A stretch of 64,000 bases of DNA, taken from assembly GCF_026340655.1 (NCBI RefSeq), contig NZ_JAPEOZ010000001.1:5704001-5768000 (forward strand), in the 5' to 3' direction. Positions 25,155-47,765 of this stretch are shown here, one piece after another. This DNA comes from Streptomyces sp. NBC_01275. GTDB lineage: Bacteria; Actinomycetota; Actinomycetes; Streptomycetales; Streptomycetaceae. A program made the translations under genes and the position numbers. Each line of letters opens with the position of its first letter. The first letter of the stretch is position 1. The notes beneath the pieces were generated by a model. That model worked only from the letters and a program-made list of their open reading frames with translations. It searched no databases and was not told where the DNA came from.

Positions 25155-28067
25155 TCACAGGGCCCGCGTCGCGTACGCCCTGACGTCCGCGTCCGAGTCC
25201 GTCGTCGCCGTGGCGAGGGCCGCGCGGGCCGGCTCGGCGGTGCGGTGGCGGGTCAGGGCCAGGACGGCGGCCTTGCGGACGTCGGCGTTCGGGTCGGCCA
25301 GGGCCTTGGCCAGGACGGGGACGGCCGTGTCGGAGTCCGCGACGGACAGCGCGGTGGCGGCCCCGGCGCGAACCTGCCAGGCCGGGTCGGCCAGAGCGGC
25401 CACGGCACGAGCGGCGAGCGGCCCAGGGCAGCCGGTGGTGCCCAGCGCACCGTAGGCGGCGGCGCGCACCAGGGCGTCGGGGTCGTCGGTGAGGGCGGCG
25501 AGCGCGGTGCGGACCGCGTCGTCGTCCTCGGGGGCTGAGGTCGCGGCTGCGGGGGGTTCGCCGAGGCGGCCCGCGGCCACTGTGGCCAGGGACTTGGCGA
25601 TCGTGACGCGGACCTCGCGGGACGGGTCGGCCGTCGCCGCGAGGGCCAGTTCGTCGGCGTCGTCGACGGACACCAGGGCGCGTACGGCTTCGATGCGGAC
25701 GGCGATGTCGGCGTCCCGGAGCGAGCCCGCGAACAGGGCGGTGTCACCGAGGCGCAGAGCGCGCAGCACGTCCAGGGCGGCGGCGCGCACGACGGGGTCG
25801 GACTCGGTCAGGGCGGCGGCGAGGCCGTCGCGCAGGGCGGGTTCCGGCGGCAAGGTCTCGACGAGCTCCCGCAGCGAGGCCGCGGCGGCGGCACGCACCT
25901 CGGCGGTGGCGTCGCGCAGCGCCTGCGCCAGGGCGGGGCCGGTGCCCGGTGGCACGGTCTCGGTGAGGACGGCGACGGCCTCGCGCCGGACGGCGGGCGC
26001 GGGGTCGGTCAAATAGGGCAGCAGGGCGTCGAGTTCGAGTTCTGGCTCGTCCTCGGTGAGGGCGAGGAGTTCGAGGAGGCGGGAGGAGGAGTGCTCAGGG
26101 CCGGGCTCGGGGCCGGGCTCGGGGACGGAGTCCGGAGCGGGTCCGGGCGACTGGGGCTGGGGCGGCGTCGAGGTCGGCGTCGAGGTCGGCGTCGAGGTCG
26201 GGGTCGGGGTCGCAGAGGTGTCCGGCCGATCCGGCACGGCGCCCGCGGTCCCGGTCGCCACCGGTGCCACGTCCCGTGAGCCAGCCGTGGCCACGTCCTC
26301 GGGACGTACCTCGCCGAGATGCCGGGAAGGGCCGCCGACGGGGGTGAACTCGTCGACCGGCACCAGATAGGGAGCCACGGGTCGGGCCGTGAACTCCATC
26401 GCACCAGAGGGGGACTTGTGCAGATCGAGGTGATGAAACCAGGACGCGTCGTCGCGACGAGGGTGGTCGAGACGCTCGTGGTAGAGGCCCCAGCGGGACT
26501 CCGTGCGGGCCAGGGAGGCGCGCGCGGCCATCTCCGCGCAGTCGCGGATGAAGGTGACCTCGGCGCACCGCATCAGCTCGTGCGGGGTGCGGCCGCCCAT
26601 CTCGGCGATGTCGGCGCGCATCCGCTCGAACGCCTCCAGGGCCAGGGACAGACGCGCGCCCGACTTCGGCGGGGCCACGTAGTCGTTCACGAAGCGGCGC
26701 AGCTTGTACTCCACCTGGGGCTGTGGCGGCCCCTGCGGGTTGCGCAGCGGGCGGTAGACCAGTTCGTGCGCCTCGCGCAGTTGATCGGCCGGAAGCTTCC
26801 CGCCGTAGGGCTGGTAGCGGGCCGCGTCCGCGCCCGCCAGCTCGCCGAAGACGAACGCGCCGATCATGTAGTTGTGCGGGACGCAGGCCAGGTCGCCGGC
26901 GGCGTACAGCCGGGGGACCGTCGTGCGGGCGTGGTCGTCCACCCGTACGCCCGAGGCGGAATGGCCGCCGCACAGGCCGATCTCGGAGATGTGCATCTCG
27001 ATGTCGTGGGTGCGGTAGTCATGGCCCCGGCCAGAGTGGAAGGTGCCTCGGGTCGGGCGTTCCGTCGAGTGCAGGATCGACTCCAGGGCCGAGACCGACT
27101 CCTCCGGGAGGTGGCTCAGCTTCAGGTACACCGGGCCGCGGTCCGAGGCGACCTCCGCCGCGAACTCGGCCATCATCTGGCCGGACCAGTAGTCGGAGTC
27201 GACGAAGCGTTCACCGTGCCGGTTGACCTGGTAGCCGCCGAACGGGTTGGCGACGTAGGCGCAGGCGGGTCCGTTGTAGTCCTTGATGAGCGGGTTGATC
27301 TGGAAGCACTCGATGCCGGTGAGCTCCGCGCCCGCGTGGTAGGCCATGGCGTAGCCGTCGCCCGCGTTGGTCGGGTTCTCGTAGGTGCCGTACAGGTAGC
27401 CGGAGGCGGGCAGGCCCAGACGGCCGCAGGCGCCGGTCGCGAGGATCACCGCGCCCGCGCGGACGGTGACGAACCGGCCCGTACGGGTGTTGAAGCCGGC
27501 CGCCCCCACGGCGCGCCCGTCCTCGGGCGACGTCAGCACGCGTACCGGCATCACCCGGTTCTCGATCCGGATCCGCTCCCGCATCTCGCGCCGCCGCAGC
27601 TGCCGGTACAGGACCTTCTTGACGTCCTTGCCCTCCGGCATGGGCAGCACGTAGGAGCCGGAGCGGTGCACCTGGCGGACCGCGTAGTCGCCGTGCTCGT
27701 CCTTCTCGAACTTCACGCCGTAGGACTCCAGGCGCTGCACCATGGCGAAGCCGCGGGTCGCGGTCTGGCGGACGGTGGTCTGGTCGACGATGCCGTCGTT
27801 GGCGCGGGTGATCTCGGCGACGTAGTCGTCGGGCTCGGCGCGGCCGGGGATGACCGCGTTGTTGACGCCGTCCATGCCCATGGCGAGCGCGCCGGAGTGG
27901 CGGACGTGGGCCTTCTCCAGGAGGAGCACGTCGGCGCCGTGCTCGGCGGCGGTGAGCGCGGCCATGGTGCCGGCGGTGCCGCCGCCGATGACGAGGACGT
28001 CGCAGGTCAGCTCCTCGGCGTCGGCGAGGGCGGGGATCTCCAGGGGCGTGTTCACGGGGGTGGTCAC
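25155..28067 (-). CDS. AprA-like FAD-dependent reductase fused to HEAT repeats
   Basis: A 970-residue two-part protein. Residues 1 to about 600 are a fumarate reductase/adenylylsulfate reductase-type flavoprotein: dinucleotide fold VLVIGGGTAGTMAALTAAEHGADV, then EKAHVRHSGALAMGMDGVNN, which resembles AprA (RSGAVAQGLS) rather than SdhA/FrdA, whose covalent-FAD His is not seen. GAVILATGACGR, NAGDGYAMAYHAGAEL and a capping-domain stretch follow. A Pro/Thr/Ser linker (TPTSTPTS, about 605-660) leads to nine HEAT-like repeats of the pattern L-x-DP-x-x-x-VR-x-x-A-x-x-AL, running to the C-terminus. HEAT arrays bind proteins. GTG start eleven bases after the ABC ATPase stop, so last in the operon. Electron partner is probably the ferredoxin of the same operon; substrate unknown. 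Confidence 0.82.
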   Translation of the reverse strand: MTTPVNTPLEIPALADAEELTCDVLVIGGGTAGTMAALTAAEHGADVLLLEKAHVRHSGALAMGMDGVNNAVIPGRAEPDDYVAEITRANDGIVDQTTVRQTATRGFAMVQRLESYGVKFEKDEHGDYAVRQVHRSGSYVLPMPEGKDVKKVLYRQLRRREMRERIRIENRVMPVRVLTSPEDGRAVGAAGFNTRTGRFVTVRAGAVILATGACGRLGLPASGYLYGTYENPTNAGDGYAMAYHAGAELTGIECFQINPLIKDYNGPACAYVANPFGGYQVNRHGERFVDSDYWSGQMMAEFAAEVASDRGPVYLKLSHLPEESVSALESILHSTERPTRGTFHSGRGHDYRTHDIEMHISEIGLCGGHSASGVRVDDHARTTVPRLYAAGDLACVPHNYMIGAFVFGELAGADAARYQPYGGKLPADQLREAHELVYRPLRNPQGPPQPQVEYKLRRFVNDYVAPPKSGARLSLALEAFERMRADIAEMGGRTPHELMRCAEVTFIRDCAEMAARASLARTESRWGLYHERLDHPRRDDASWFHHLDLHKSPSGAMEFTARPVAPYLVPVDEFTPVGGPSRHLGEVRPEDVATAGSRDVAPVATGTAGAVPDRPDTSATPTPTSTPTSTPTSTPPQPQSPGPAPDSVPEPGPEPGPEHSSSRLLELLALTEDEPELELDALLPYLTDPAPAVRREAVAVLTETVPPGTGPALAQALRDATAEVRAAAAASLRELVETLPPEPALRDGLAAALTESDPVVRAAALDVLRALRLGDTALFAGSLRDADIAVRIEAVRALVSVDDADELALAATADPSREVRVTIAKSLATVAAGRLGEPPAAATSAPEDDDAVRTALAALTDDPDALVRAAAYGALGTTGCPGPLAARAVAALADPAWQVRAGAATALSVADSDTAVPVLAKALADPNADVRKAAVLALTRHRTAEPARAALATATTDSDADVRAYATRAL

Positions 28068-28078
28068 CGGGGAGCCTT

Positions 28079-28846
28079 TCAGGTACCGAGCGAGGTCAGG
28101 ACGTCGTGGCGCAGGGCTGAGTGCGCCGGATCGTCGTGTGCCGCACGTTCCCGCGGACGAGGCACGTCGCGTACGGCGGTCAGCCGGCCGGCGGCCAGGA
28201 GGGCGACGCGGTCGCCGAGGAACAGGGCCTCGTCCACGTCGTGGGTGACGAAGACGACGGTGGCGCCGGTGCCGCGCAACACCTCCACCAGCAGGTCCTG
28301 CATGCCGGCGCGGGTCTGGGCGTCGAGGGCGCCGAAGGGTTCGTCCATGAGGACGGCGCGGGGCGCTCCCGCGAGGGCCCGGGCCAGCTGGGCGCGCTGG
28401 CGCTGCCCGCCGGAGACACGGTGCGGCAGTTGCCGGGACTGGTCGGCGAGGCCGACGCGGGTGAGCCAGGAATCGGCTTGGGCGCGGCGTTCGGCGCGCG
28501 GCAACCCCTTGACGGCCAGCGGCAGCTCCACGTTCGCGCGCAGGGTGCGCCAAGGCAGGAGGGCGTCCTCCTGGAAGATCAGGGCACGGTCGGCGGCGGG
28601 GCCCGTCAGCGGGCGCCCGTCCTGGCTGATCGCTCCGGCGAGGGGAGACAGAAGCCCGGCCAGCGTGCGCAGCAGGGTCGACTTGCCGCACCCCGAGCGG
28701 CCGACGACGGTGAGGATCTCGCCGGGGGCCACGTCGAGGTCCACTCCGTCGAGCACGGGCGCGCCCGGCCGTCCGAGGGCGGCGCCCCGCAGCGCCAGTC
28801 CCGCGCCGGTGCGGGAGGGCGAACGGACGTCAGACGAGCTGGTCAT
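28079..28846 (-). CDS. ABC transporter ATPase, SsuB/TauB (nitrate/sulfonate) family
   Basis: Cytoplasmic ATPase (255 residues) of an importer. Walker A GRSGCGKST at 49-57, Q-loop in LIFQEDALLPWRT, signature RVSGGQRQRAQLARALA, Walker B with RAVLMDEPFGALDAQTR and the switch His in VFVTHDVDEAL are all intact. FQEDALLPWRT and the D-loop FGALDAQTR are typical of the nitrate/sulfonate/taurine subfamily. The ATG at 28846 has AGGAGG upstream and overlaps the end of the permease gene by 17 bases, showing coupling. It partners with the downstream-numbered permease and lipoprotein genes. Confidence 0.9.
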   Translation of the reverse strand: MTSSSDVRSPSRTGAGLALRGAALGRPGAPVLDGVDLDVAPGEILTVVGRSGCGKSTLLRTLAGLLSPLAGAISQDGRPLTGPAADRALIFQEDALLPWRTLRANVELPLAVKGLPRAERRAQADSWLTRVGLADQSRQLPHRVSGGQRQRAQLARALAGAPRAVLMDEPFGALDAQTRAGMQDLLVEVLRGTGATVVFVTHDVDEALFLGDRVALLAAGRLTAVRDVPRPRERAAHDDPAHSALRHDVLTSLGT

Positions 28847-29693
28847 GGGGCAGGTCCTCCTGGGTCGCGGGGTTGACCGGAACGGCTGCCGCGGCACCGC
28901 TCACTCGCCGCGGAGTCCGGCCGACGGGGACGTACGACGTCCTCGGCAGCCAGCGGGTCAGCCTGCGGCCGAGGAGTTCCACGGCCGTGGAGGTGAGCCA
29001 GCCGAGCACGCCGATCGTGACCATGCCGACGAACACGCCGGGGTAGTCGACGACCGTGTAGTCCTGCCAGGTGCGGTAGCCGACGCCGTACTGGCCGGAG
29101 ATCATCTCGGCGGAGATCACACAGATCCACGACACGCCGATGCCGACCGACAAGCCGCCGAAGATGCCGGGCAGCGCGCCAGGCAGGACGACCGAGCCGA
29201 GGACCCGCGATCGGCCGCCGCCCATGGTGCGCACCGCCTCCTCCCACACCGGGGTCAGCGCGCGCACTGCGTGCCGGGTGGAGACCAGGACGGGGAAGAA
29301 GGCGGCGGTGAAGGTGATGAAGACGATGCCCTGTTCGTTGGAGGGGAAGAGGAGGATCGCGACGGGGACCAGGGCGATCGCCGGGATCGGACGGAGGACT
29401 TCCAGGACCGGGCCGAGCAGGTCTTCGGCGAGCCGCGAGCGCGCCACGAGCACGCCCGTGGCCACGCCCAGGACGGCGGCCAGCAGAAAGCCGGTGACGA
29501 TGCGGGTGAGGCTGTCGGTGAGGTCGGTCCAGTAGTCGTCGCCGGTCAGCCGGTCGGCGAAGGTCCGGGCGACGTCGGCGACCGTCGGGAACTGCGAGAA
29601 GCGCAGCCACAGGTCGACGTTCAGGCTGGTCAGCAGCTGCCAGACGCCGAGGGCGGCCACCAGCGAGGCCGCCCGCAGCGCATACCGGGTCAC
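28830..29693 (-). CDS. ABC transporter permease, SsuC/TauC family
   Basis: Integral membrane protein (287 residues) with about six helices and the EAA coupling loop EEAVRTMGGGRSRVLGSVVLPGALP, the site where the ATPase docks. It belongs to the BPD_transp_1 family as found with nitrate, taurine and alkanesulfonate importers; PIPAIALVPVAILLF is a characteristic stretch. GTG start at 29693 overlaps the stop of the binding-protein gene (GTGA). Longer frames upstream lie within that gene. Substrate follows from the binding protein and is unknown. Confidence 0.9.
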   Translation of the reverse strand: MTRYALRAASLVAALGVWQLLTSLNVDLWLRFSQFPTVADVARTFADRLTGDDYWTDLTDSLTRIVTGFLLAAVLGVATGVLVARSRLAEDLLGPVLEVLRPIPAIALVPVAILLFPSNEQGIVFITFTAAFFPVLVSTRHAVRALTPVWEEAVRTMGGGRSRVLGSVVLPGALPGIFGGLSVGIGVSWICVISAEMISGQYGVGYRTWQDYTVVDYPGVFVGMVTIGVLGWLTSTAVELLGRRLTRWLPRTSYVPVGRTPRRVSGAAAAVPVNPATQEDLPHDQLV

Positions 29694-31033
29694 GACGCCC
29701 GCCCCAGCGCGTCGGCGTAGGCGACGAGGCGGGCGCCGCCGTGCCCGGCGACGTACGCCTGTGCGGTCGCCGGAGCGACGAAGGGGAGCAGTTGGTCGCC
29801 GTCGGTCACCCAGACCGCCTTGTCGGCGAACCACAGGGTGCCGGTGGTGGCGTCTGGGACATAGGCGGCGCGGATGCCGTCCTTGTGCTGCGCGACGTAG
29901 GCCAGCAGTGCGGCGGGGGACTTGAAGGTACGGGTCTCGGCGGCGCCCCGGGGCCAGACCTCGCTCGCGGCCGGTGCGGGCGTGGCGGCCAGCTGCTGGG
30001 CGTAGGACGAGCCGAGCGCCTTCTTCACGTACCGGTCGTCGACGAAGGCGTCCACGTCGACGTCCCCGGTCAGTTTCGCCGCCTTCAGGACCGACACGTC
30101 CTCCTTGAGGGCGGAGACGAGCTGCGGCTTGAGGGCCGGGTCGAAGGTGGCGATGCCGTGGGCGCCGTTGTAGAGGTAGACGACCTCGGCGGGCAGGCCG
30201 GTGGCCTTCGCGACCTTCTCGGCGGCGGTCACGGGGTGTTCGTCGAGGTAGGCGGTGGCTTCCGCCTGGGCCTTCAGGAATGCCTCCAGCACGGCCGGGC
30301 GTCTCGTCGCGAAGTCCTCGCGGGCGGTGACGCCGTGGAAGGTGGGGAGGTCCAGCTGGGCGCCGTCGTACAGGGCTTTGGCCTTGCCCTGGTAGGCGAG
30401 CAGGCCGGGCCAGGCGACGAACTGCGAGAGCGCGTCCGCGCTGCCCGCGGCGAGGGCCGAAGCGCCCACCGCGGGCTGCTGGTTGAGCTTCTCGATGCCC
30501 TGGTCGGGGTCGATGCCGACGCGCTGGAGGGCCCGAACGAGGGTGCCGTCGGCGGCGGATCCGATGCTGGTGGAGACCTTCTTGCCCTTGAGGTCCGTGA
30601 GGGAGGTGAGCTTGGAGTCCGGTGCGGTGACGATGGTGTTGAGGCCGCCGCGCAGGTTGTAGCCGGTGACCGAGACCAGGTGGGTGGGCTTGCCGAGCTG
30701 TTTGCCGCGGGCGGCGTTGATGAGGAGCGGGAAGTCGCCCATCGAGCCGATGTCGATCTTCCCGGCCGTCATCTGGGCGGTGATGGGGGCGCCGGTGGCG
30801 TAGTCCTGCCAGTCGACGTTGTAGGTGTTGCCGTCGCCGAGGGCGTTCAGCGCGTTCTCGAAGTAGCCGAGCGAGCGCAGAAGGGTGCCTGCGGTGACCG
30901 TGTTGATGGTCTTGGACTGGTAGCCGACGGTGACGGTCACCGTGGAGCCGCTGCCGGCCTCGGCGTTGCCGCCGCAGGCCGTGAGCGGGAGGAGGAGAAG
31001 GACGGCGGACGTGACGACTGCTCTGCGTTTCAT
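29690..31033 (-). CDS. Lipoprotein ABC substrate-binding protein with NosL-like C-terminal domain
   Basis: Extracellular binding protein of 447 residues. The lipobox LPLTAC places the lipidated Cys at residue 20. The body (about 30-340) is an SsuA/TauA-like type II binding fold: VTVGYQSKTINTVTAGTLLRSLGYFE, IDIGSMGDFPLLINAARG and LKGKKVSTSIGSAADGTL are typical. Binding proteins of this family are usually near 330 residues; here about 85 extra follow. The extra part (YVPDATTGTLWFADKAVWV, then LLPFVAPATAQAYVAGHGGARLV) resembles the C-terminal half of NosL, a copper lipoprotein of nitrous oxide reductase assembly, though the metal-binding N-terminal motif of NosL is not seen. The assignment of this tail is by eye. 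ATG start 16 bp after the ferredoxin stop. Confidence 0.85.
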   Translation of the reverse strand: MKRRAVVTSAVLLLLPLTACGGNAEAGSGSTVTVTVGYQSKTINTVTAGTLLRSLGYFENALNALGDGNTYNVDWQDYATGAPITAQMTAGKIDIGSMGDFPLLINAARGKQLGKPTHLVSVTGYNLRGGLNTIVTAPDSKLTSLTDLKGKKVSTSIGSAADGTLVRALQRVGIDPDQGIEKLNQQPAVGASALAAGSADALSQFVAWPGLLAYQGKAKALYDGAQLDLPTFHGVTAREDFATRRPAVLEAFLKAQAEATAYLDEHPVTAAEKVAKATGLPAEVVYLYNGAHGIATFDPALKPQLVSALKEDVSVLKAAKLTGDVDVDAFVDDRYVKKALGSSYAQQLAATPAPAASEVWPRGAAETRTFKSPAALLAYVAQHKDGIRAAYVPDATTGTLWFADKAVWVTDGDQLLPFVAPATAQAYVAGHGGARLVAYADALGRAS

Positions 31034-31049
31034 GGGAGTTCGGGACCTC

Positions 31050-31277
31050 TCACCGGAGCAGGTAGGGCATGTTGACCGTGACGGCTCCGGTGGGACAGCG
31101 GGCTGCGCACGGGCCGCAGTACCAGCACTCGTCGACGTGCATGTACGCCTTGCCGTTGCTCTCGTCGATGGCGAGGGAGTCCAGCGGGCACATGTCCACG
31201 CAGAGGGTGCAGCCGTCGATGCACTTCGACTCGTCGATGGTCACGGGCACGTCGGCCCGCTGGGGCGCCAAGGGCAT
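31050..31277 (-). CDS. Two-cluster ferredoxin, AprB-like
   Basis: Small 75-residue iron-sulfur protein, first gene of the operon. The first cluster site is spaced C-x3-C-x2-C-x3-CP (CIDGCTLCVDMCP), one residue longer than the normal CxxC start, recalling the irregular first site of AprB. The second is regular, ECWYCGPCAARCP, and the Trp-x-Cys around it also recalls AprB. In adenylylsulfate reductase AprB passes electrons to or from the FAD of AprA; here the AprA-like partner is four genes downstream. It lacks the C-terminal tail of true AprB. ATG start with GGAGA upstream. Confidence 0.85.
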   Translation of the reverse strand: MPLAPQRADVPVTIDESKCIDGCTLCVDMCPLDSLAIDESNGKAYMHVDECWYCGPCAARCPTGAVTVNMPYLLR

Positions 31278-31301
31278 GGCTGTCTCCAGAAATGTCCGGC
31301 A

Positions 31302-31319
31302 GATATCCAGTGAAATATC
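31302..31319. promoter_or_regulatory. Inverted repeat in the promoter of the ferredoxin-ABC operon
   Basis: GATAT-(8)-ATATC, inside a longer stretch with two TATCC copies, lies 25-42 bp before the ferredoxin start and in the gap shared with the 3' end of the GntR gene. It is a candidate operator for that regulator. It is A/T-rich against a very G/C-rich background. Confidence 0.35.
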
Positions 31320-31423
31320 CGGCGCGGCAGTGAACCGAAAAGGCCCTGCCGAACGATGAAGAGGTGAAGGGGGATGGGGCGAAGGGAGGACGGGGTGACG
31401 GAGGGCGGGGTGGCGGAGGGCGG

Positions 31424-32224
31424 TCAGAGGGAGCGGTGGAGCAGGCCGCTCATGGTGATGCGGTCGCCGCGGAAGCGGATGAACTCCAGGTCGACCGGGC
31501 GGCCGTCGGCGAGATGCGTCAGCCGTTCCAGCATGAGGACGGCCGCGCCGCGCGGGGCTTCGAGTACGGCGGCGGAGTGGGCGTCCGCGTTGACCGCCTC
31601 CAGGGTGATCTCGGCGTGGCCGAGACGCTGGCCCGTGATGCCCTCCAGGAGGCGGAAGACGTCGGTGTTCTCCAGGTCGGCGCCGAGCAGGGCGGCGCCG
31701 ATGTCGAGCGGGATGTAGGTGAGGTCGAGGGAGAGGGGGAGACCGTTGAGGCGACGCAGACGTTCGATGTAGAGGACGTCCGTGCCGGGCGGGATGTGCA
31801 GGCGTTCGGCGACCGGGGAGGGCGCGGGGGCGGGGCCCATCGTGCGGACCTCGTTGGTGACCCGGCCGTGCTCACGGAGGGTTTCCGCGAGGCCCATCAG
31901 ATGGTCTAGGCCGTGCGGGTACTTCTCGGCGACGACGACGGTGCCGACGCCGGGGAGCCGTTCCACGAGGCCTTCGGCCCTGAGGAGGTCGAGGGCCTGG
32001 CGGACGGTGTTGCGGGTGGCGCGGTAGTCCGTGGCGAGTGTCGTCTCGTGCGGGAGTGTGCCGTCCGGGAACCCGCCGGCCAGGAGCTGGTGGCGCAGTA
32101 GGTCGGCGAGTTGCCTGGCCTGGTCGGCGCGCAGCCGTCGCCGCGCGCGGTGGGCGGCGACGGTGGTCGCGCCTTGGCCGGCGTGGTCTCGGACGCGGTC
32201 GGTGGGCGGCATGTTTCGAACCAT
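31424..32224 (-). CDS. GntR/HutC-family transcriptional regulator
   Basis: Ligand-responsive DNA-binding protein of about 266 residues. N-terminal winged helix-turn-helix: RLRADQARQLADLLRHQLLAG...LPHETTLATDYRATRNTVRQALDLLRAEGLVERLPGVGTVV. The C-terminal UTRA effector domain follows (GTDVLYIERLRRLNGLPLSLDLTYIPLDI, ending in LTHLADGRPVDLEFIRFRGDRI). HutC-type regulators usually repress neighbouring transport or catabolic genes until a small molecule binds. It sits immediately upstream of, and in the same orientation as, the ferredoxin-ABC-flavoprotein operon, so it is its likely regulator. Start uncertain: ATG 32224 or 32212, both with weak ribosome-binding sites, and a further frame upstream. 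Confidence 0.88.
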   Translation of the reverse strand: MVRNMPPTDRVRDHAGQGATTVAAHRARRRLRADQARQLADLLRHQLLAGGFPDGTLPHETTLATDYRATRNTVRQALDLLRAEGLVERLPGVGTVVVAEKYPHGLDHLMGLAETLREHGRVTNEVRTMGPAPAPSPVAERLHIPPGTDVLYIERLRRLNGLPLSLDLTYIPLDIGAALLGADLENTDVFRLLEGITGQRLGHAEITLEAVNADAHSAAVLEAPRGAAVLMLERLTHLADGRPVDLEFIRFRGDRITMSGLLHRSL

Positions 32225-32368
32225 AGCGAGCCGGTAGGAAAAGCCGTGTTGCCGGAGTGTTGCGCCACCTGCGGGAACGTCAGACAGGGCGATGACCTGC
32301 GGAAACGCCATGCGGGGCGCAAGATCTGCCACAGCCGTCGGCCGACGGCTGCCGGCTGTCCGCGGGCG

Positions 32369-47537: not shown

Positions 47538-47556
47538 GACGAAGTTCCTCTCCTTC

Positions 47557-47765
47557 GCCTGCGAGGTGAGCTGTCGGGTTCGGGCGGGAGCTGCCCGGCC
47601 GCGCCCTGACGGACACGACTTCACCCCAAGCCGTACCGGTATGTCCGAATCAACCGTAAAAACTGGAGATGTCGAAAATATTCAGTACGGCGACTTACCT
47701 GGTTCCCCCGCTCCTGCCGAGCGTTCTAGTAGGTGGTCCGGGCGGCGGCAGGATTCGGCGTCCGC
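47557..47765 (-). ncRNA. ydaO-yuaA (cyclic di-AMP) riboswitch
   Basis: Read on the minus strand, the leader of the transglycosylase gene contains, in order, the conserved blocks of the ydaO motif: GACGCCGAATCC (near 47750-47762), GCGGGGGAACCAGG (near 47697-47710), GGCTTGGGGTGAAGTC (near 47619-47634), GGGCAGCTCCCGCCC, and the 3' block CCCGACAGCTCACCTCGCAG then GC (47558-47579). The 3' end is about 20 bases before the start codon. Boundaries are approximate. In known examples c-di-AMP binding lowers expression of cell-wall hydrolases. Confidence 0.88.

Follow-up and report, generated by a model that had tools for sequence, protein, structure and literature searches.

The 64,000-nucleotide stretch of Streptomyces sp. 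NBC_01275 analysed here (the window; contig NZ_JAPEOZ010000001.1, positions 5,704,001 to 5,768,000) carries on its minus strand, at 25155-32224, an operon of six genes in the order GntR-UTRA regulator, ferredoxin, lipoprotein substrate-binding protein (SBP), permease, ATPase and flavoprotein, in which a redox pair of the adenylylsulfate (APS) reductase type (AprAB) is joined to an SsuABC-type importer. The anatomy of this operon, its breadth of occurrence and its kinship with AprAB are well supported. With regard to function, our leading reading, to which we give slightly less than an even chance, is that the operon forms a module for scavenging (or detoxifying) sulfur, which would import oxidised organosulfur and cleave it via ferredoxin-driven flavin chemistry. 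An interpretation made earlier from the DNA letters and their open reading frames (the sequence-only reading) had already described the union of redox pair and importer, and all six genes were found where it had placed them.

The gene set is more than a chance arrangement, because the flavoprotein, the ferredoxin and a HEAT-repeat region occur together in all 40 neighbourhoods compared (24 of the 42 matches in the genus, one other actinobacterium, G096, and 15 of the 21 proteobacterial matches); the importer is present in 38 of them (absent from L240 and L251). A contig scan with the Cupriavidus pinatubonensis flavoprotein returned at least 581 relatives, 80 of which were kept, and among these listed matches the flavoprotein is accompanied by the ferredoxin in 80/80, by GntR in 77, by HEAT in 77, by DUF971 in 60 and by the full SBP-permease-ATPase set in 70, with the transporter lacking in seven and cut off by a contig end in three. 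Homologues that regularly stand without transporter and ferredoxin would have told against the sequence-only reading; those without the transporter are a minority in both samples, and not one in either lacks the ferredoxin. The HEAT region is fused within the flavoprotein in the window and lies inside the flavoprotein's open frame of >900 codons in 25 actinobacterial loci, whereas in proteobacteria and cyanobacteria it is a separate gene. DUF971 (Pfam GBBH-like_N) is found in 15/15 proteobacterial neighbourhoods, and three cyanobacterial loci have an Mrp/NBP35 gene; the cyanobacterial Mrp protein carries FeS_assembly_P. As regards breadth, the PRK13800 cut-off is exceeded in 8 of 246 genomes for the phylum and in 42 of 121 for the genus, and that of PRK08275 in 21 of 398 genomes of the Cupriavidus alkaliphilus phylum and in 14 of 60 of the Cupriavidus genus set, each tally including its centre genome, a known positive. 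The core (flavoprotein, ferredoxin, HEAT) is also present on annotated plasmids of rhizobia, Methylobacterium, Methylocystis, Acidithiobacillus, Acinetobacter, burkholderias and three cyanobacteria, a survey to which the unannotated loci L125 and L134 do not belong; some plasmid loci have Crp/Fnr or LysR regulators nearby instead of GntR.

The whole flavoprotein matches the NCBIfam model PRK13800 (NF010374) with 1654.4 bits (cut-off 1196) and its FAD part matches PRK08275 (NF006131) with 859 bits (cut-off 587), and both models are matched by 47/47 aligned relatives at E<=1e-20. NCBIfam names both as a fumarate reductase/succinate dehydrogenase flavoprotein subunit, a name that, judged by sequence, does not fit. 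Among chains of the PDB, the best score belongs to the alpha subunit of the Methanothermococcus 3'-phosphoadenylylsulfate (PAPS) reductase (191 bits, residues 16-549), followed by Archaeoglobus AprA (109 bits), with SdhA and NadB chains at no more than 83; the earlier judgement that the FAD-domain blocks resemble AprA rather than SdhA/FrdA is thus borne out. The score against the AprA family model TIGR02061 is below its cut-off (124.3 versus 641.75 bits). In a 51-row tree, 24 window-type proteins form one group (support 100/100) that is joined to five rows of AprA and PAPS reductases (96/87), and the two together stand apart from the Sdh and NadB rows (97/99). In a 29-row tree without the longest branches the three groups are likewise separate (support 99-100; window-type group 100/99), although this tree is unrooted and, with three groups, carries no reading of sisterhood. 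The window-type rows thus form a group of their own, outside the AprA/PAPS reductase group and outside the fumarate reductase and L-aspartate oxidase groups, a placement among which would have told against the sequence-only reading. The motifs HYxMGG and NRLGxNS, present in Sdh-type rows, are absent from window-type flavoproteins. In the predicted structure of the flavoprotein, the helical repeats of the HEAT region are confident and the linker at 567-653 is of low confidence. Other lineages were met along the way: two loci of the same phylum (L017 and L018, genomes G233 and G003) have an AprA-like flavoprotein adjoining a CWDC ferredoxin and group with PAPS reductase, not with the window family, and a further flavoprotein with an adjacent CWIC ferredoxin (L027, genome G090), which has a long branch and falls into neither the AprA nor the window group, is possibly one more lineage.

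The active site was compared in AprA numbering, in an alignment of 103 window-type proteins with Archaeoglobus AprA and PAPS reductase, these 103 relatives, like the 97 ferredoxins discussed below, coming mostly from Pseudomonas-/Burkholderia-type loci of one scan and therefore not being independent (locus L130, left with 19 residues by a misread start, is not included in the alignment). In AprA, Arg265 and Arg317 bind the substrate, and Asn74 and His398 flank the flavin. Both Asn74 and His398 are kept in 103/103 proteins, whereas Arg265 is replaced by Leu in all and Arg317 by Met in 101 and by Ile in two; the latter column adjoins a gap, and in the pairwise PDB alignment the position is Ala, likewise not Arg. 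Trp234 has become Tyr and Gly274 an invariant Cys in 103/103, and Glu141 has become Lys in 77 and Arg in 26. PAPS reductase and the AprA/PAPS reductase-type rows L017, L018 and L135 keep Arg265, Arg317 and Trp234, and in these too the position of Glu141 is Arg. Since the two flavin-flanking residues are kept and the two arginines replaced, the cradle of the flavin and its adduct is conserved, and two arginines of the substrate clamp are lost. The idea that the protein works as AprA itself is therefore not supported. Across the family, 213 alignment columns are invariant or nearly so, among them the Cys at the position of Gly274, which may be taken as a sign of one shared, specific reaction.

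The two-cluster ferredoxin had been called irregular, and this irregularity is real: its pattern, Cys-x3-Cys-x2-Cys-x3-Cys-Pro followed by Cys-x2-Cys-x2-Cys-x3-Cys-Pro, is common to 97/97 relatives (window included), the first spacing being x5 in 91 of them and x3 in six. Eight cysteines for two [4Fe-4S] clusters and the motif CW(Y/F)C, a form of the CWxC of AprB, are present in all 97. In AprAB the tryptophan of this CWxC motif links cluster and flavin. Its counterparts are CWEC in AprB (3gyx_B) and CWDC in the beta subunit of PAPS reductase. Because the motif is kept throughout, the comparison supports a docking of the ferredoxin on the flavoprotein as in AprAB. The score against the AprB model TIGR02060 stays under its cut-off (36.3 versus 135.65 bits). 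It had also been suggested that both end proteins of the operon carry extra domains. This holds for the flavoprotein with its HEAT repeats (approximately residues 657-970), but no extra domain was found by Pfam in the 75-aa ferredoxin, and the GntR protein has the usual UTRA domain; the other extra domain in the operon belongs to the binding protein, whose C-terminus shows a weak likeness to NosL.

The binding protein, whose lipobox LTAC (residues 17-20) was read by eye, has the SsuA/TauA fold, and both sequence and structure comparison place it nearest to sulfonate and taurine binders. Nonetheless, although Pfam and NCBIfam together assign a family to each of the six genes, the transporter genes remain under the curated NCBIfam cut-offs: the binding protein scores 137.4 bits against SsuA_fam (cut-off 163.5), the ATPase 216.4 bits against TauB (cut-off 357), and the best matches of the permease (SaoP, NtrB, TauC and SsuC models) are all below theirs. 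An SBP-dependent transporter of the SsuA/C/B type is, as its family points to, presumably an importer, and we take COG0715, COG0600 and COG1116 to be the COGs of nitrate/sulfonate/taurine importers. The relatives and fold of the binding protein support an oxidised sulfur compound as the putative substrate. NosL is a copper protein of nitrous-oxide reductase assembly; a NosL match was seen in 22 of 29 relatives of the binding protein, and the structural comparison, which covered residues 29-350, did not confirm the NosL-like domain.

Among the closest known systems is the PAPS reductase of Methanothermococcus thermolithotrophicus (8a8o; accessible text of PMC10322725), which is the best match to the FAD region, has a CWxC two-cluster ferredoxin and keeps the Asn and His alike. 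The window protein is 28% identical to it, has other residues in place of its R237 and R276 (R265 and R317 of AprA), is about five residues longer in the loop near residue 135, and is encoded together with an importer, HEAT repeats and a GntR regulator. Archaeoglobus AprAB (1jnr/2fja) shares with the window pair the fold, the ferredoxin motif, Asn74 and His398, but Gln145 is replaced in the window type along with Arg265, Arg317, Trp234, Glu141 and Gly274, and the window ferredoxin is shorter (75 versus 150 aa). The SsuABC and TauABC importers have the same binding-protein fold and transporter classes as the window operon, which differs from them in its scores under the curated cut-offs and in the added NosL-like domain. 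A pair of the Methanothermococcus type was also seen on the Ilyobacter polytropus plasmid pILYOP02 (L135, 29561-41066; 861 bits to 8a8o_A), a fusobacterial plasmid typed as conjugative, alongside cysC, cysD and an anion symporter; to judge by its genes, this is an assimilatory AprAB-type sulfate operon outside archaea.

The sequence-only reading took AprAB not to be joined to an uptake system in aerobes. A reductase/ferredoxin pair clustered with an SBP and an ABC transporter is known in an aerobe from the asf cluster of Pseudomonas putida S-313; a LysR regulator completes this cluster, and asfA mutants can no longer use aromatic sulfonates (accessible parts of PMC4267179). In Cupriavidus metallidurans CH34, AsfA and AsfB are Rmet_4334/5 (PMC2864759, as far as its accessible text goes). 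Genome G280 has seven TauD matches, six of them on one contig of 2,580,084 bp, and their spacings around the circle (294, 259, 550, 180 and 597 kb) fit the CH34 gene-number intervals of 273, 224, 486, 173 and 531 derived from the same part of PMC2864759, so that Rmet_4334 is expected by interpolation at about 923 kb. Within 890-950 kb the queries found a single flavoprotein-ferredoxin pair, which lies at 927.9-929.9 kb (L169 17881-19862) and adjoins SBP, ATPase and permease genes; by its position we take it to be CH34 AsfAB. Presumed AsfA lies outside the window group in the 51-row tree, weakly placed on a long branch; compared with this gene, identified by position, the window flavoprotein does not belong to the AsfA lineage. 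Gene order had suggested that it might be AsfA, and this candidate was discarded because a different flavoprotein stands at the CH34 locus. HEAT queries gave no match within the same 890-950 kb. Thus, the Asf cluster resembles the window operon in that an FAD flavoprotein, a ferredoxin and an SsuABC-type importer are clustered in an aerobe, but differs in its branch of the FAD superfamily, in lacking CWxC and in having LysR rather than GntR (PMC4267179, accessible parts). In sequence, Asf looks like an analogous system and not the same family, and presumed AsfAB pairs a flavoprotein and a ferredoxin of a different kind next to SsuABC-type genes; the partnership of flavoprotein, ferredoxin and importer may have arisen more than once.

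Nor is the operon undescribed, as had been thought possible, since NCBIfam models exist for its flavoprotein and an Acinetobacter ortholog was studied in 2026. According to the accessible part of that study (PMC13104710), the A. baumannii GntR-ABC operon AUO97_RS16340-RS16365 is one transcript, the GntR ortholog binds the promoter region and acts as an activator, and mutants in GntR and the permease are peroxide-sensitive; the transporter is called an efflux pump. By the data given there, the operon has the same six genes in the same order as our locus L044 and the same chromate-transporter neighbour. Four distances agree (241 bp to the chromate transporter gene, and 28, 19 and 34 bp), as does the length of the binding protein (476 aa), whereas two of the six distances differ (74 versus 20 bp and 16 versus 1 bp). 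Its gene order is unlike that of actinobacteria, and the accessible text mentions neither HEAT nor DUF971 genes and states nothing of the enzyme's substrate. The ferredoxin A1S_1719 is among the genes seen only in biofilm cells by RNA-seq and was called iron-related (PMC3758355, in the part accessible).

From these observations we infer a substrate, a direction of electron flow, a product and roles for the accessory proteins as follows. The lipoprotein of sulfonate-binding fold would capture a small oxidised organosulfur anion, which the SsuBC-type permease and ATPase would import. In the cytoplasm, the ferredoxin would dock on the flavoprotein as AprB does on AprA, and electrons would pass via the tryptophan of its Cys-Trp-x-Cys to FAD. 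The FAD enzyme would retain the N5-sulfite adduct site of AprA (Asn74, His398) without the APS-clamping arginines; because these are lost, it would act on a non-nucleotide substrate, and it would most likely release sulfite. The HEAT repeats, fused in actinobacteria, may be a scaffold or partner, DUF971 in many proteobacteria or Mrp/NBP35 in cyanobacteria probably serves iron-sulfur assembly, and the GntR-UTRA protein would control the operon. A bolder version, which we consider rather unlikely but worth stating, is that the family is a third AprAB-type class, an aerobic ferredoxin-driven desulfonase that would form a flavin N5-sulfite adduct and break a C-S (or other X-SO3) bond without oxygen or nucleotide, hard-wired to its own importer and spread over actinobacteria, proteobacteria and cyanobacteria under a wrong name.

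Several points weigh against the sulfur module. With both arginines gone, a sulfo group is less likely to be bound at its former position, and the substrate may for this reason be something other than a sulfonate. To judge by structure titles, the ligands of SsuA-fold proteins also include bicarbonate, nitrate, thiamine, pyrimidine precursors and PQQ. In a Foldseek search with the predicted model, Mycobacterium Sdh1 (rank 3) comes between PAPS reductase (rank 1) and AprA (rank 4), and the model is poorly resolved in its substrate lobe (pLDDT under 50 for most of residues 252-371), so that the comparison of the pockets rests on sequence alignment. TauE/SafE-like genes beside three operon copies, with sulfate-exporter-type genes beside two of these three, do speak for a link to sulfur, but they occur in only 3 of 96 loci, and apart from the importer no sulfur gene is regularly linked. 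The only experiments found on an ortholog report peroxide tolerance rather than sulfur nutrition and speak of efflux (PMC13104710, accessible part). In the accessible texts on sulfur limitation and sulfonate growth (PMC8557817, PMC7661421, PMC11852219 and PMC8079746), no fumarate-reductase-type flavoprotein is named, the operon status of the strains being unchecked, and a term search of the accessible parts of these four and of PMC9694294 and PMC4505118 found nothing on the operon. A literature search in which subscription journals were thinly covered found no work on the reaction of the enzyme.

The arginine losses and the wide ligand range of the SBP fold would suit a rival explanation, hydride or adduct chemistry on FAD with a substrate free of sulfur, such as a heterocycle or some other small anion, as would the scores of binding protein and permease under the NCBIfam cut-offs for sulfonate and taurine families; we consider this unlikely, given that the nearest relatives of the binding protein are sulfonate and taurine binders. 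Quite unlikely, too, is a role of flavoprotein and ferredoxin that is limited to supplying electrons to an unlinked oxygenase, which would desulfonate the imported compound, as was proposed for AsfAB of P. putida S-313. The asf cluster is needed for aromatic sulfonates (PMC4267179, accessible parts), and the presumed C. metallidurans pair adjoins SsuA/B/C-type genes, but its AsfA belongs to another lineage (score against PRK08275 56 bits, cut-off 587; 21.7% identity to the window FAD domain), has no equivalents of Asn74 and His398 in the alignment, and its AsfB lacks CWxC. Moreover, homologues of four oxygenases taken from neighbouring genes, the only oxygenase families searched for in this count, occur in 0/25 actinobacterial, 1/15 Pseudomonadota and 1/80 named loci; because they are nearly absent, none of the four appears to belong to the unit, which leaves the flavoprotein as the likely catalyst. 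The 45 matches to PF00296 monooxygenases in the genome gave no lead.

The published view of the Acinetobacter operon, by which it acts in oxidative stress and its ABC transporter carries toxic compounds out of the cell, finds backing in operon genes that are overexpressed under H2O2 and belong to the OxyR regulon, and in GntR and permease mutants that are more H2O2-sensitive and can be complemented (PMC13104710, accessible part, in the former case citing Juttukonda 2018). We nevertheless regard it as improbable. The same accessible text reports COG0715, COG0600 and COG1116 for a transporter that, being SBP-dependent and of the SsuA/C/B type, is an importer by family, for which reason we read the peroxide phenotype as a probable loss of uptake; such sensitivity can presumably stem from lost sulfur or iron-sulfur supply. 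Besides, since the flavoprotein-ferredoxin-HEAT set occurs without the transporter (in seven of the 80 matches listed among at least 581, and in two of the 40 neighbourhoods), export would not be the core of the set. Two further readings are hardly credible. A true APS or PAPS reductase of assimilatory sulfate reduction, suggested by the nearest solved relatives, was rejected on the replacement of Arg265 and Arg317 in every aligned relative, with the change of Trp234 to Tyr, whereas PAPS reductase, L017, L018 and L135 keep all three; also, in contrast to the Ilyobacter operon, the annotated neighbourhoods list neither an ATP sulfurylase nor an APS kinase gene, the plasmid annotation being incomplete. 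An ordinary fumarate reductase, succinate dehydrogenase or L-aspartate oxidase has the NCBIfam name in its favour and was set aside because of the separate tree position and the missing HYxMGG and NRLGxNS motifs.

If the sulfur module is real, an enzyme of oxidised organosulfur, built on the scaffold of sulfate reducers, has gone unrecognised in many bacteria of soil and plants. To our knowledge, the aerobic desulfonation routes described (SsuD, TauD and the proposed Asf route) use oxygen; a reductive one would bring a new kind of chemistry to the sulfur assimilation of aerobes. The sulfur reading would also correct the database label "fumarate reductase/succinate dehydrogenase" and the Acinetobacter label "efflux pump", and would suggest, through the supply of sulfur and iron-sulfur clusters, why the Acinetobacter operon matters under peroxide stress.

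Features of the operon in the window (positions in window numbering)
Feature	Position	Strand	Evidence
GntR-family regulator with UTRA domain	31424..32224	-	Pfam GntR 51.7 bits, UTRA 123.3 bits
75-aa two-[4Fe-4S] ferredoxin, AprB-like (Cys-Trp-Tyr-Cys)	31050..31277	-	translation; Pfam Fer4_7
SsuA-like lipoprotein SBP with weak NosL-like C-terminal domain	29690..31033	-	
ABC importer permease, SsuC/TauC type	28830..29693	-	BPD_transp_1 69.6 bits
ABC importer ATPase, TauB/SsuB type	28079..28846	-	ABC_tran 105.9 bits
970-aa flavoprotein, AprA-type FAD enzyme with fused HEAT repeats, GTG start	25155..28067	-	PRK13800
AprA-type FAD domain, flavoprotein residues 16-573	26349..28022	-	PRK08275; alignment with relatives
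HEAT-repeat domain, flavoprotein residues 657-970	25155..26099	-	HEAT_2 98.9 bits; helical repeats in model
Conserved upstream element GTGGCGCAAYANTNCNGCAACAC, candidate operator/promoter of operon	32246..32268	-	core conservation

The genes are closely packed, with 16 bp between ferredoxin and SBP, 11 bp between ATPase and flavoprotein, and overlaps of 4 and 17 bp on either side of the permease gene. The gap between GntR and ferredoxin is 146 bp in the window but at most 65 bp in 23 of 27 related actinobacterial loci, and for this reason GntR probably belongs to the unit; the best PDB relative of this regulator is DasR. Of 28 actinobacterial loci, window included, 27 have the core TGGCGCAA upstream of GntR, and the exception (L221) has GGCGCAACA in its place. 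In the genome (10.4 Mb, 9 contigs), the pattern of the 23-bp element has one exact place, and the only other place within three mismatches has three; with a single exact copy, no regulon is indicated through this element. Rfam at gathering thresholds gave no match within the operon, and its sole match in the window is a c-di-AMP riboswitch (ydaO/yuaA leader) at 47548-47760 on the minus strand, with 61.5 bits.

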